From an uncultured Bacillota bacterium (GTDB lineage Bacteria; Bacillota; Clostridia; Peptostreptococcales; Anaerovoracaceae), in assembly GCA_949287095.1 (NCBI GenBank), contig CASEFA010000002.1:62001-126000 (forward strand): 64,000 nt of DNA, read 5' to 3'. Made by a program: the position numbers and the translations under genes. This document shows, piece after piece, positions 2,334-26,549 of the stretch. The notes below the pieces were generated by a model, which saw nothing but the letters and a program-made list of their open reading frames with translations, was not told the origin of the DNA and did no database searches. The number at the start of each line of letters is the position of its first letter. Within the stretch, counting starts at the first letter, position 1.

Positions 2334-3569
2334 ATGAAGAGAAGAGTTGTAATTACAGGCATGGGAGCCGTGTCCCCCATAGGCTGCGGTGTGGACAGAA
2401 TGTGGGAAAACGCCGGAAACGGCGTATGCGGAATAGACTATATAAAGAGCTTCGATACGGAAGGAATGGCGGTGAAGATTGCGGCAGAGGCTTCGGACTT
2501 TGACCCGTCCTCCATCATGGACAAGATGCAGGCAAGGCGTACCGCCAGGTTCACCCAGTTCGCCCTTGCGGCGGCAAAGGAGGCCTTCACTCAGAGCGGC
2601 CTCGACATGAGCGTAGAGGATCCGTCAAGGTTCGGCGTCAATCTGTCCAGCGGAATCGGCGGACTTCCGGTAATAGAAGCAGAGCACGAGAAGGGAATGA
2701 AGAGAGGCTTTGACAGAGTGTCACCGCTCTTTGTTCCTATGGCTATAACCAACATGGCGGCCGGTATGGTTGCCATTGAATACGGTTTCAAGGGAAGCTG
2801 CCAGTGCATAGTGACGGCCTGCGCCTCCGGAACTAACGCCATAGGCGAGGCTTTCAGAAAGATAAGGGACGGATATCTTGACTGCTGCATGACGGGGGGA
2901 AGCGAAAGCTGCATATCGCCTCTCGGAATCGGCGGATTCACGTCCATGAAGGCTTTGACCGAGGCGGAGGACCCGAAGAGAGCGTCCATACCATTCGACG
3001 CGGAGAGAAGCGGCTTCGTAATGGGAGAAGGCGCAGGGGTTCTAATTCTGGAAGAATACGGGCGCGCAAAGGCAAGAGGTGCGGATATTCTGGCGGAGGT
3101 CATCGGTTACGGAGACAGCTGCGACGCCAACCACATGACGGCGCCGCTGGAAGACGGAAGCGGAGCGGCTCTCTGCATGAAAAATGCCCTTGCGGACGGG
3201 GAAATCACTCCGGAGGATATCGGCTACATAAATGCTCACGGAACCTCGACTCCTATGAACGACCGCTGCGAGACAGCGGCGGTAAAGCTGGCATTTGGCG
3301 ATCACGCATATAAGCTTATGATGTCGTCTACAAAATCCATGACGGGACACCTTCTCGGCGCTTCCGGCGGTGTGGAGGCAATTCTCACCGTTATGGCGCT
3401 TAAGGACGGATTCGTTCCGCCTACTGCCGGATACGAAAAGCCGGACCCGGACTGCGATCTTGACATAGTTCCGAACAAGGGAAGAAAGGCAGACATTGAG
3501 TACGCCATGTCGAATTCCCTGGGCTTCGGCGGCCATAATGCATCAGTAGTTTTCAGGAGGTACGAATAA
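2334..3569 (+). CDS. fabF: 3-oxoacyl-ACP synthase II FabF
   Basis: Condenses malonyl-ACP with the growing acyl-ACP. The 411-residue protein has the KAS triad Cys163 (TACASG), His302 (NAHGTSTP) and His339 (MTGHLLGAS). I place the start at the ATG at 2334 ([11 protein letters not shown]), five bases after fabG, behind an AGGTAGGA site; an in-frame GTG at 2316 would add six unconserved residues and lacks a suitable ribosome site. The stop overlaps the fabZ start by one base. Confidence 0.96.
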
Positions 3570-22114: not shown

Positions 22115-24124
22115 ATGAGAATTGCTTTTGCCGGCAATCCCAACAGCGGTAAAACCACAATGTACAACGCGCTGACGGGAAGACATGAACACGTGGGTAA
22201 CTGGGCCGGGGTTACCGTGGGAAGAAAGGAAAGCCCTATCAAAAAGGAATTTGGCGGAGAGGGTCTTATTGCGGTGGACCTTCCGGGAGCCTACTCCATG
22301 TCTCCGTTTTCTCCGGAGGAGAGCATAACCAGCGGTTACGTCAGAGACGAAAACCCGGACGCCATCGTAAACATCGTTGATGCGACAAACCTGAGCCGAA
22401 GCCTTTTCTTCACGACACAGCTTCTGGAGCTGGGAATTCCGGTGGTTGTAGCTTTAAACAAGAGCGACATAAACGAGAAGACCGGAACGAAGATAAACGT
22501 TGAGAAGCTTTCGGAAAAGCTGGGCTGCCCGGTGGTTGAAACGGTTTCCACAGGCGGAAGAGGCCTTAAGGACGTAATGACAAAGGCTGCTTCCCTTAAG
22601 GGAAAGGGTCAGGAGGCGCCTTATCTTCAGGCCGACATTGACATGGAAAACAAGGCGGCCGTTGAAACCGAGGACAAAAAGCGTTACGCCTTTGTCAGCA
22701 AAATAGTTTCCGAGGTGGAGACGAGAAAAATTCTCACCAAAGAGGAGACGGTTTCTGATAAAATAGATAAGGTGATAACCAACCCGATCGCCGGAATACT
22801 TCTGTTCGCTGCGGTAATGTGGGGCGTATTCTATGTTTCACAGGTATTGGTAGGACCCCTTATCGCCGACTGGCTGGTAGGATGGATTGAAACCTTCCAG
22901 GGATGGGTATCAGATAAACTGGCAGGAGGATCGCCGTTCCTTCAGGCTCTCATAGCTGACGGTATCGTGGGAGGCGTAGGAGCTGTAGTGGGATTCCTTC
23001 CGCTTGTAATGGTAATGTACTTCCTTATCGCCCTTCTTGAAGACTGCGGATACATGGCCAGAGTAAGCGTAGTTCTCGACCCGATATTCAAGAGGGTGGG
23101 ACTTTCCGGAAAATCCGTAATTCCTTTCGTAATAGGAACGGGCTGCGGAATACCGGGAATCATGGCAACCAGAACCATAAGAGACCTGAGAGAGAGAAGA
23201 GCCACCGCAATGCTGACGACCTTTATGCCTTGCGGAGCGAAGATTCCGGTCATAGCTCTTATCGCCGGAGTGTTTTTCCCTGAATCCAGCTGGGTGAGCC
23301 CTGTAATGTACTTCACGGGAATATTCCTCATCTTCATATGGGCTCTTATCGTAAAGGTTATTACCGGACATAAGTACAGAAAATCCTTCTTCATCATGGA
23401 AATGCCGGAGTACAAGGGACCGAGCGTTGCGAGAGCTACCCTTTCCATGCTGGAGAGAGCAAAGGCATATATCATAAAGGCTGCCACCATCATACTGGTG
23501 TGCAACGCCGTGGTTCAGATCATGCAGAGCTTTACATGGCAGTTTACGCCGGTTCCTGAAGGAGCGCAGGAAACCTCCATACTGGCTTCCATCGCCACAC
23601 CTTTTGCTGTAATCCTCGTTCCTCTGGGATTCGGAGTATGGCAGCTTGCCGCGGCGGCGGTTACTGGCTTTATCGCCAAGGAGAACGTGGTGGGAACTCT
23701 GGCCGTAGTATACGGACTTACCAACTTCATCGACGTGGATGCGCTGGAACTTACCGGCGGAGCGTCCGACGTTGCGGGAGTTCTGGGAATGACCTCGGTA
23801 GCGGCTCTTGCGTACCTGATGTTCAACCTGTTCACACCTCCGTGCTTTGCGGCTATCGGAGCAATGAACTCGGAGCTTCAGAGCAAAAAGTGGCTGTTCG
23901 GAGCCATAGGACTTCAGCTTTCGACGGGCTACATCGTGGCGTTTGCCGTATATCAGCTGGGAACCCTGTTCACTGAGGGACATCTCGGAACGGGATTCTT
24001 CCCTGGACTCATAGCCGTGGCTCTTATGATAATCGCCATCGCATATGTAACTATTTCATCTCGTCGTAAGGTTGCGGCAGAGTACGCCGCCCTTCATGTA
24101 AAGAAAGCAGGTGCAGCAGCATAA
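22115..24124 (+). CDS. feoB: Ferrous iron transporter FeoB
   Basis: Inner-membrane Fe2+ transporter with a cytosolic G domain. The 669-residue protein has the G1 loop GNPNSGKTT at 7-15, DLPGAYSM (G3) and LNKSD (G4), an S-helix region, then the membrane domain with the two mirrored gate regions (VIPFVIGTGCGIPG and the ENVVGTL segment) and about eight to ten membrane helices. CAGGAGGACG gives a strong ribosome site. Its stop overlaps the start of a small Cys-rich membrane gene. Confidence 0.97.
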   Translation: MRIAFAGNPNSGKTTMYNALTGRHEHVGNWAGVTVGRKESPIKKEFGGEGLIAVDLPGAYSMSPFSPEESITSGYVRDENPDAIVNIVDATNLSRSLFFTTQLLELGIPVVVALNKSDINEKTGTKINVEKLSEKLGCPVVETVSTGGRGLKDVMTKAASLKGKGQEAPYLQADIDMENKAAVETEDKKRYAFVSKIVSEVETRKILTKEETVSDKIDKVITNPIAGILLFAAVMWGVFYVSQVLVGPLIADWLVGWIETFQGWVSDKLAGGSPFLQALIADGIVGGVGAVVGFLPLVMVMYFLIALLEDCGYMARVSVVLDPIFKRVGLSGKSVIPFVIGTGCGIPGIMATRTIRDLRERRATAMLTTFMPCGAKIPVIALIAGVFFPESSWVSPVMYFTGIFLIFIWALIVKVITGHKYRKSFFIMEMPEYKGPSVARATLSMLERAKAYIIKAATIILVCNAVVQIMQSFTWQFTPVPEGAQETSILASIATPFAVILVPLGFGVWQLAAAAVTGFIAKENVVGTLAVVYGLTNFIDVDALELTGGASDVAGVLGMTSVAALAYLMFNLFTPPCFAAIGAMNSELQSKKWLFGAIGLQLSTGYIVAFAVYQLGTLFTEGHLGTGFFPGLIAVALMIIAIAYVTISSRRKVAAEYAALHVKKAGAAA

Positions 24125-24321
24125 TGACACTTACAGACGTAATTGCAGTACTGATAGTAGCGGCCGCATTAGGCGGAGCCATAGCTTATATTATTCGCGC
24201 CAAAAAACGGGGAGCAAGATGCATAGGATGCCCGTCGGCAGGATGCTGCAGCAAGGCTCACCGGAAAGAAGAAGGATCCGGCGGCAGCGAAGACTGCGGT
24301 TGCGGCTGCTGCGGGAAGTAA
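24124..24321 (+). CDS. FeoB-associated Cys-rich membrane protein
   Basis: A 65-residue protein: one membrane helix at about 5-24, a basic stretch (RAKKRGAR), then eight cysteines (33, 36, 41, 42, 58, 60, 62, 63) in CxxC and CGCGCC patterns. It starts on the last base of feoB, so it is co-translated. Proteins of this type follow feoB in many Firmicutes and take the place of FeoC; a metal-handling or sensing role is inferred, not shown. Confidence 0.85.
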   Translation: MTLTDVIAVLIVAAALGGAIAYIIRAKKRGARCIGCPSAGCCSKAHRKEEGSGGSEDCGCGCCGK

Positions 24322-24374
24322 TCCGGTCTGCGCGCGTAACGGCATGGCGGACCTGTGTAACGGACGCAGAGGGC

Positions 24375-24567
24375 GGATTTGACAAAATCCGTGAATAAGA
24401 GGAAAAAGGTCAAGGCGAAATTTGACATTTTGCAGAGACAGAAGATAAGAGGTCAAGGAATTTCTTTGAAAGGCAGGAGATTTTCTTGACCTCTTTGCGT
24501 GTGAGAGGTGGAATTGTCAAAAAACGCCTTGACCAGAGCGCCCGAAAATGGCGTGTTTGTCAAATCC
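24375..24567. repeat. Three nested inverted repeats in the noncoding region after feoB
   Basis: The 473 bases 24322-24794 contain no supported gene. Outer pair: GGATTTGACAAA (24375-24386) with its exact complement at 24556-24567. Middle pair: GGTCAAGGCG, AAA, TTTGACA (24408-24427) with TGTCAAA, AAA, CGCCTTGACC (24515-24534), i.e. ten plus seven paired bases round a symmetric AAA/AAA loop. Inner pair: AAGAGGTCAAG (24447-24457) with CTTGACCTCTT (24485-24495). All arms share a GTCAA/TTGAC core. It could be one long RNA hairpin or a small inserted element. Confidence 0.75.
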
Positions 24568-24612
24568 TTTCAGCAAACTCTTTCAGCAGATCCATTCAGC
24601 AGACCCTTTCAA
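24566..24612 (+). repeat. Short direct repeats TTCAGCA
   Basis: Immediately right of the outer inverted arm, TTTCAGCA-like words recur three times at 12-13-base spacing (CTTTCAGCAAACT, CTTTCAGCAGAT, CATTCAGCAGAC), then CCTTTCAAACC. Confidence 0.6.
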
Positions 24613-24715
24613 ACCTCATCAAAAGACACTTTTGCCCGACCCGGCTGCCTCGCCGCCGTCAGATTACAAAAACATTTTCCGTGCAGAATTTTGCTGATTT
24701 TGTCCCTCCGTCGCC

Positions 24716-24794: not shown

Positions 24795-26549
24795 ATGCTG
24801 AAAGTACTTTTTAGATATTTTAAACCTCATATGAATATTTTCGTACTGGATATGTTCTGCGCCATAATGGTCGCGGCAATCGACCTGGCGTTTCCGCTTA
24901 TCTCGCGACACGCCATGAACGTGATGCTGCCGGAAAAGATGTATCTGGTGTTTTTTGTGGTCATGGCTCTCGTCGCCGTATCATACCTTCTCAGGTCGGT
25001 GTGCTACTTCATCATGACCTACTGGGGGCACACCTTCGGCGTAAGGGTTGAGGCGGACATAAGGGCGGACCTGTTCAGGCATCTTCAGGAGCTGGACTTC
25101 GAGTTTTACGACCATAACAGAACCGGTAAGCTGATGAACAGGCTTACGGGAGATCTCTTTGAAATAACGGAGCTTTCCCACCACGGCCCCGAGGATGTGG
25201 TGATTGCGGGCCTTACCATACTGGGAGCGCTGGGCTTTATGTTCACCATAGAGTGGAGGCTGGCGCTGGTTGTGGCCATCATCATTCCGATTTTTGTGGC
25301 GGTGATAATGACTTCGAGAAGGCGTATGTCGTCGGCATCGTTAAACGTAAAGCAGAAGATGGCCTCCATAAACGCGGACATCGAGTCCTGCATATCGGGA
25401 ATCAAGACCTCCAAGGCCTTTGCCAACGAGGACGTGGATCAGGAGAGGTTCGACCGCTCCAACGATATATTCAAAGGCGCAAAGAGCGACTACTACAAGG
25501 CTATGGGGTTCTTCTTCGGAGCCCAGGAATTCTTCATGTGCATAATGCCGGTGGCCGTTATAGCTTTCGGCGGATACCTTATCATGAAAGGCCAGATGAA
25601 CTACGTGGATCTCATCACATTCACCCTGTTCATAACCACCTTTGTAACGCCTATAAGAAAGCTTTCCAACTTTGCCGAGGTATTCGTAAACGGCATGGCG
25701 GGACTGAGAAGATTCAAGGAAATCATGGATATGAAGCCTGAGGTTTCGGAAAAGCCGGGGGCTGAGGATCTTCACGTGACAAAGGGTGATATTGACGTTA
25801 ACGACGTAAGCTTTTCCTACGACGACGATACGGAAGTTTTAAGGAATGTGGATCTTCACATCAAAGCCGGCGAAACCGTTGCGGTGGTGGGTCACTCGGG
25901 AGGCGGAAAGACCACTCTTTGTCAGCTTATACCGAGATTCTACGACGTCACATCGGGAAGCATAACCATAGACGGCGAGGACATCCGCGACGTGACAAAG
26001 CATTCAATCAGGGAGAACATCGGAATCGTTCAGCAGGACGTGTTCATATTCGCGGATACCATTCTGGAGAATATAAGATACGGAAGACCTGAAGCTACCT
26101 TTGAAGAGGTAATCGAGGCGGCAAAGAAAGCAGAGATTTACGACGATATCCTGGATATGCCCGACGGCTTCGACACGTATGTGGGAGAGCGGGGAACCAT
26201 GCTATCGGGCGGACAGAAGCAGAGGGTGTCCATTGCGAGAATCTTCCTTAAGAACCCGAAGATACTCATTTTAGACGAGGCCACGTCAGCCCTCGATACC
26301 ATTACAGAGGAAAGAATCCAGAGGAGCTTTGACGAGCTTTCCGTGGGAAGGACCACCATTGTCATCGCTCACAGACTTGCGACGGTTAAAAACGCCGACA
26401 GAATCGTTCTCATCGACGACGGCAGAATTGCAGAAGAGGGAACTCACAGCGAACTTCTGGCTCTCGGCGGTATGTACGCCAAGCTGTACAACACCCAAAA
26501 GCTGATTGGCGAGAAGAAGATGGGAAACGACGTTGGAGAATCAGAGTAG
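24795..26549 (+). CDS. ABC exporter half-transporter (MsbA/LmrA type)
   Basis: A 584-residue fusion of a six-helix membrane domain (about 1-310) and an ATPase. ATPase motifs: Walker A GHSGGGKTT at 366-374, signature LSGGQKQR at 470-477, Walker B ILILDEATSALD, and the His switch IVIAHRLAT. It would act as a homodimer, or with a partner not seen here. Substrate unknown; this class covers lipids, peptides and drugs. The nearest GGAG site is about 19 bases upstream of the ATG, longer than usual. The next gene, an LCP protein, has its own promoter. Confidence 0.92.
   Translation: MLKVLFRYFKPHMNIFVLDMFCAIMVAAIDLAFPLISRHAMNVMLPEKMYLVFFVVMALVAVSYLLRSVCYFIMTYWGHTFGVRVEADIRADLFRHLQELDFEFYDHNRTGKLMNRLTGDLFEITELSHHGPEDVVIAGLTILGALGFMFTIEWRLALVVAIIIPIFVAVIMTSRRRMSSASLNVKQKMASINADIESCISGIKTSKAFANEDVDQERFDRSNDIFKGAKSDYYKAMGFFFGAQEFFMCIMPVAVIAFGGYLIMKGQMNYVDLITFTLFITTFVTPIRKLSNFAEVFVNGMAGLRRFKEIMDMKPEVSEKPGAEDLHVTKGDIDVNDVSFSYDDDTEVLRNVDLHIKAGETVAVVGHSGGGKTTLCQLIPRFYDVTSGSITIDGEDIRDVTKHSIRENIGIVQQDVFIFADTILENIRYGRPEATFEEVIEAAKKAEIYDDILDMPDGFDTYVGERGTMLSGGQKQRVSIARIFLKNPKILILDEATSALDTITEERIQRSFDELSVGRTTIVIAHRLATVKNADRIVLIDDGRIAEEGTHSELLALGGMYAKLYNTQKLIGEKKMGNDVGESE

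Follow-up and report, generated by a model that had tools for sequence, protein, structure and literature searches.

An eight-site TTGAC/GTCAA array with a terminator-like central stem-loop at the 3′ ends of genes in Candidatus Avanaerovorax

A 187-base array of eight alternating TTGAC and GTCAA half sites, with a terminator-like stem-loop at its centre, lies behind the feo genes in the window, which is the 64,000-nucleotide stretch of DNA from an uncultured Bacillota bacterium that was analysed. The same layout recurs in 70 copies in four genomes, it is conserved in place between sister species, its two halves do not co-vary, and its copies are placed at the 3′ ends of genes. Judged from the sequence, there is about an even chance that the array is a two-way transcription-end or boundary module, in which a terminator-like hairpin is set inside an eight-site protein array. 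The array is well established, and its mechanism is what we infer: a sequence-specific protein probably binds the array and helps to close off transcription.

Layout of the array and its central stem-loop

The first-pass annotation of this DNA had described three nested inverted pairs around a common centre, which shared GTCAA/TTGAC. A repeat search bore this out, with an outer pair at 24375–24386 and 24556–24567 (12 nt, 100%), a middle pair at 24408–24430 and 24512–24534 (23 nt, 83%), and an inner pair at 24447–24460 and 24482–24495 (14 nt, 93%), and it showed that the feature is larger than had been described. The arms, which had been read as variants of one word, are more compactly described as eight alternating TTGAC/GTCAA half sites in an unstranded array that runs from TTTGAC to GTCAAA (24378–24564). 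The window copy (24379–24563) reads TTGAC-N25-GTCAA-N8-TTGAC-N25-GTCAA-N29-TTGAC-N25-GTCAA-N8-TTGAC-N25-GTCAA, with start-to-start spacings of 30-13-30-34-30-13-30, and the layout is mirror symmetric as a whole. This copy matches the eight-word layout at all 40 of the 40 specified bases, and scores of at least 34 out of 40 were confined to such arrays among the positions scanned around the fetched loci. The TTTGAC and GTCAAA ends form terminal inverted repeats, which are 12 nt long in the window copy.

Among the 70 copies, the outer TTGAC of site 1 (24379–24383, minus strand, TTTGACA type) and the GTCAA of site 2 (24409–24413, plus strand, AGGTCAAGG type) are each intact in 66, and the TTGAC of site 7 (24529–24533, minus strand, CCTTGACC type) and the outer GTCAA of site 8 (24559–24563, plus strand) in 67. 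The two arms of the central hairpin, GTCAA at site 4 on the left (24452–24456, plus strand) and TTGAC at site 5 on the right (24486–24490, minus strand), are likewise intact in 67 copies each. The variable sites are site 3 (TTGAC, 24422–24426, minus strand), intact in 38 copies, and its partner site 6 (GTCAA, 24516–24520, plus strand), intact in 46, and both are intact in the window copy. Words 2, 4, 5 and 7 have the extended context AGGTCAAGG, and words 1, 3, 6 and 8 read TTTGACA/C or the complement. Across copies, the lengths of the gaps differ by no more than one base, and the spacer sequences are unrelated. The second gap is 13 bases in 69 of the 70 copies and 12 in one, the sixth is 13 in all 70, the fourth is 34 in 69 and 35 in one, and the four 30-base gaps are all 30 or 29, the shorter length being found in 12, 4, 4 and 11 copies, respectively. 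Helical phasing of the eight sites was seen and was set aside, as it was equalled by 11.6% of random symmetric layouts.

The central stem-loop (24447–24496, unstranded, −23.1 kcal/mol) has a T-rich tail on both strands and is terminator-like. Of 69 copies, 56 have T-runs next to this stem-loop on both strands (at least four T of eight on each side). The hallmark of intrinsic terminators, a stable stem-loop followed by a T run, is present, and this stem-loop may end transcription; a stricter terminator scan found none in the window copy. When the pairing of the central loop was compared with shuffles, the mean z was −1.03 in the own genome (4 of 23 copies below 0.05) and −0.92 in the related genome G001 (4 of 16 below 0.05). 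Signs of pairing at the RNA level are modest and are limited to this central stem-loop.

Copies of the array and their conservation in place

The BLASTN search that the first-pass annotation had proposed gave 19 matches in the own genome, which identified a dispersed family. A spacing pattern of three consecutive words matched this genome 65 times, while the reversed control gave no match. The stretches fetched from four genomes contained the 70 full copies, which were 24 in the own genome (G000), 27 in G002, 16 in G001 and 3 in G003, with one or two bases of slack allowed in the spacing. The own 24 are spread over many contigs, and sub-families are found among the dispersed copies, with the C4, C5, C10a and C2a copies alike. 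The site chains numbered 81, from which 11 scoring below 32 were left uncounted: partial or contig-cut copies (L013, L014, L075, L077), a weak match (L045), and second chains overlapping a counted array (L018, L021, L042, L050, L053, L072). L014 was restored for the gene-context count only, which brought that count to 71, and L015, which is cut by a contig end, is within the 70 and was excluded from the 69-copy tests. An apparent extra 43-base unit in G001 (L091) was a chance four-of-five match and was dropped.

Several single loci were irregular. The own-genome array at L014 (1931–2050) stops after site 5, and its positional counterpart in G002 is a full array. At L077 (1660–2900) in G001, a module that by eye resembles a toxin–antitoxin or HTH-regulator pair takes the place of the array's right half. 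L020 is an array remnant, and beside this degenerate remnant the start of the contig (G000:C23, 1–110) resembles, also by eye, the 3′ end of a group II intron. L035 and L036 (G000:C1) are two near-identical arrays 12.6 kb apart, and a single array locus in G001 combines a left flank shared with one of them and a right flank shared with its partner, which suggests a duplication or an exchange.

Among 40 relatives, the pattern was present in number only in three genomes of the same genus (Ca. Avanaerovorax); one further genome had a single match with two mismatches, and the controls were all zero. A search for the exact geometry of five words in one genome per species, which covered 84,980 species, returned 11 stretches, and their records were Ca. 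Avanaerovorax faecigallinarum, CASFAX01 and CALXBQ01 (G002, G001 and G003, respectively). When a sequence model was run over 148 genomes of the family, its strong matches were confined to the three members of the genus in that sample. In other genera the model gave five isolated weak matches, which lacked the layout, scored 19–21 out of 40, near chance level, and were not counted. No array match was found in the viral contigs, plasmids and phages searched. Within the genomes searched, the array family is restricted to the genus Ca. Avanaerovorax, and no description of such an element was found in the literature at the level of titles and abstracts.

At 22 own copies an orthologous copy was found at the same place in the sister species G002. 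The half sites of these pairs differ at 11 of 879 positions, as compared with 279 of 3175 in the spacers (Fisher p = 9e-19); the flanks differ at 882 of 11939. The outer words played no part in the pattern by which the G002 copies were located, and they differ at 1 of 219 positions (p = 1.5e-7). Gap lengths differ in 4 of 154 cases, and there are 14 indel events per 4054 aligned bases inside the array versus 117 per 11939 outside. Because the words change far less than the spacers, selection acts on the words in place, and the distances are likewise kept by selection at each site. As both words and spacing are conserved in place, the array is not a decaying element.

Placement at 3′ ends of genes and sites without the array

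The arrays are placed at the 3′ ends of genes. Using gene calls made from codon usage, the 71 copies are flanked by convergent genes in 32 cases, by tandem genes in 29 and by divergent genes in none, and in 10 the neighbours were not both called. The own genome has 12 convergent, 9 tandem and no divergent copies; the window's gaps of at least 100 bases, minus the array's own tandem gap, are 1 convergent, 13 tandem and 3 divergent, which gives p = 0.0015 for the excess of convergent copies against this small baseline. The tandem copies do sit upstream of one gene. In the window, the array follows feoB (22115–24124, plus strand, Pfam FeoB_N 3.6e-55) and the last gene before it, which encodes a FeoB-associated Cys-rich membrane protein (24124–24321, plus strand, Pfam PF12669 4.6e-7), and the next gene encodes an ABC exporter (24795–26549, plus strand, Pfam ABC_membrane and ABC_tran). 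Across the copies, the neighbours include feo, ftsZ, ftsW, glutamate dehydrogenase, TyrRS, peptidases, permeases, Crp-like and DtxR-like regulators, rubrerythrin and others. These genes are unrelated, and the regulon of a single pathway was therefore rejected. The first-pass annotation had also considered a regulator target with several sites close to the ABC exporter. We favour a binding array of several sites but do not tie it to the exporter, since copies lie behind unrelated housekeeping genes and never in a divergent promoter region.

Some neighbouring features were noted in passing. Three imperfect 13-base tandem units (TTTCAGCAGAYCC, 24561–24611) abut the end of the window array and are also present in G002. 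One array (L044, 2078–2665) adjoins a gene for a UPF0236 protein (Pfam PF06782), a member of the ISLre2 transposase family. An ORF of 265–268 aa, nuclease-like by eye and with no Pfam match, lies between two arrays in G000 (L017, 1109–1906) and in G002 (L119, about 2473–3272); its relatives are intact in G003 near the L010 locus and decayed in G000 at L010. As an array-linked gene it was rejected, because it occurs at just two own loci of the set (L017 and L010, with the G002 counterparts L063 and L049), and it is therefore not a general partner of the array.

The window locus can be compared with relatives that lack the array there. A 353-base segment (24315–24667, unstranded) is present in the own genome and in G002. 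In G001 and G003, which share the flanks at 93–97%, its place is taken by 79 bases, in which a symmetric stem-loop, AAAGGACAGGAA-GAT-TTCCTGTCCTTT (−16.3 kcal/mol), directly follows the last feo gene. In this one clear case, the position of the array is thus occupied in relatives by a plain terminator-like stem-loop; the terminator scan did not list the stem-loop of the G001 site. G003 also lacks the array at the L037 locus, where, as read from the sequence, 329 bases are exchanged for 44, and the 44 bases contain a stem-loop with no clear T run. At three loci at least, L010, L016 and L042, the left gene has by eye its own intrinsic terminator before the array, and therefore the array is not always the sole terminator there, which counts against a pure terminator role. 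The L042 locus in G003 (L107, 1270–10990) has about 9.8 kb of extra genes and no array; among the extra genes are two for large, secreted-looking proteins that resemble each other in their C-terminal domains and, by eye, a tyrosine-recombinase-like ORF.

Possible roles and comparison with known systems

In the reading that we prefer, a sequence-specific protein, probably an oligomer with several identical DNA-binding domains, would assemble on the array, and the bound protein together with the central hairpin would end or block transcription from both sides; alternatively, the array may otherwise insulate the neighbouring transcription units. More specifically, and tentatively, a protein-dependent two-way transcription boundary may have evolved in one genus of gut Clostridia, with a dedicated oligomeric protein on the eight half sites. 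If this is true, the array would replace or reinforce intrinsic terminators at some two dozen gene ends, and it would be a bacterial analogue of an insulator. Dispersed bacterial repeats are mostly treated as decaying selfish DNA; here, direct comparison of sister genomes shows that each site retains its words and spacing but not the sequence between them. The array thus offers a clean opportunity to look for a new site-specific chromosomal protein and to ask whether protein arrays are used in bacteria to end transcription or to insulate it.

An RNA hairpin of about 190 bases, which the first-pass annotation had suggested and which could act as an sRNA or a 3′ UTR structure, would agree with the proposed folding check, in which the single strand was more stable than shuffles (z −6.56 and −5.38), and with the comparison against spacer-shuffled versions (mean z −1.12; 14 of 69 below −2, none above 2). 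However, a chimera test showed that the low folding z arises because the words themselves are symmetric. Chimeras that joined the left half of a copy to the right half of a different one were equally stable, with mean z of +0.2 and +0.12 on the two strands for 23 own copies and 0.0 for 16 copies of G001, and none of the 23 own copies was better than 95% of its chimeras. Only 3 of 93 deviating pair positions in the words were compensated in the other arm, and the spacers paired no more within than between copies (0.23 vs. 0.30 and 0.32 vs. 0.34 for 12 copies, in three of which the right half was shifted by one base, a shift that the chimera test corrected). Rfam returned three chance-level matches, all below the gathering score. 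As the halves are interchangeable without loss of stability and do not co-vary, the long RNA hairpin is very improbable and a DNA–protein array is likely; the fact that the words are kept as words, and not as pairs, points to binding of the double helix.

The other readings concern DNA. The degenerate miniature transposon of the first-pass annotation survives in part, since the family is dispersed and differs in presence and absence between species, but it is not degenerate, as words and spacing are conserved. The array could also be a non-autonomous mobile element, its words being transposase or recombinase sites of an unseen mobile element and its copies having spread recently; the dispersed copies with sub-families, the presence and absence between species and the inverted termini would fit this reading. 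We regard it as unlikely: fixed copies keep words and spacing under selection, no duplicated target was seen, the one aligned array-less site shows a 353-for-79-base exchange instead of a clean insertion, and the viral contigs, plasmids and phages gave no match. The Y1 transposase (PF01797) was found in G000 and G003, whereas G001 with its 16 copies and G002 with its 27 lack it, and RAYT/REPIN identity was rejected because the transposase is missing in two of the four array-bearing genomes. The main rival, somewhat less doubtful than the mobile element, is that the array is a site at which a nucleoid or topology protein binds to organise the chromosome or to handle supercoils, in the manner of BIME/REP sites, its position behind genes resulting from supercoils collecting there or from promoter avoidance. 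The absence of divergent copies (0 of 61 resolved, with 32 convergent), the 24 full copies on many contigs beside unrelated neighbours, and the copy numbers found, which vary by species (24, 27, 16 and 3), are consistent with it. Yet on this reading the T-tailed hairpin at the centre, which has its tails on both strands in 56 of 69 copies, would not be needed, and a terminator-like stem-loop can take the place of an absent array.

The two-way transcription-end or boundary module that we favour shares features with several known systems. CtsR heptads are GGTCAAA direct repeats, and the words of the array differ from them in orientation and spacing. Oligomeric regulators, for example of the Lrp type, bind regularly spaced operator arrays at promoters, and the eight-site array is like these in its repeated half sites at fixed distance, but none of its 61 resolved copies lies in a divergent region. 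MITEs such as RUP, Correia/NEMIS and ERIC are short dispersed non-coding elements with inverted ends, as is the array; in contrast to them, its internal words are under selection in place, it has the eight-site layout, and no target duplication was seen, the window locus showing the 353-for-79-base exchange against the site without the array. REPs are reported to be 20–40 bp long, many of them tagged GTAG or CGTC, and usually to exceed 100 copies per genome; for REP, BIME and REPIN sequences, roles in supercoiling and termination have been proposed, and protein binding is mentioned (PMC3733652, PMC2817692). The array resembles them in being dispersed, intergenic and palindromic with alternating orientations, but unlike REPs it is 187 bp long, has eight identical half sites and was found in 3–27 full copies per genome, and the invariant columns among its 187 spell neither GTAG nor CGTC. 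Bidirectional intrinsic terminators resemble the array in that a stem-loop lying behind convergent or tandem genes has T runs on both strands. The array differs from them in that nearly all copies have the same stem word, GTCAA, and in that six more copies of this word stand outside the stem at fixed distances and are conserved without co-variation.
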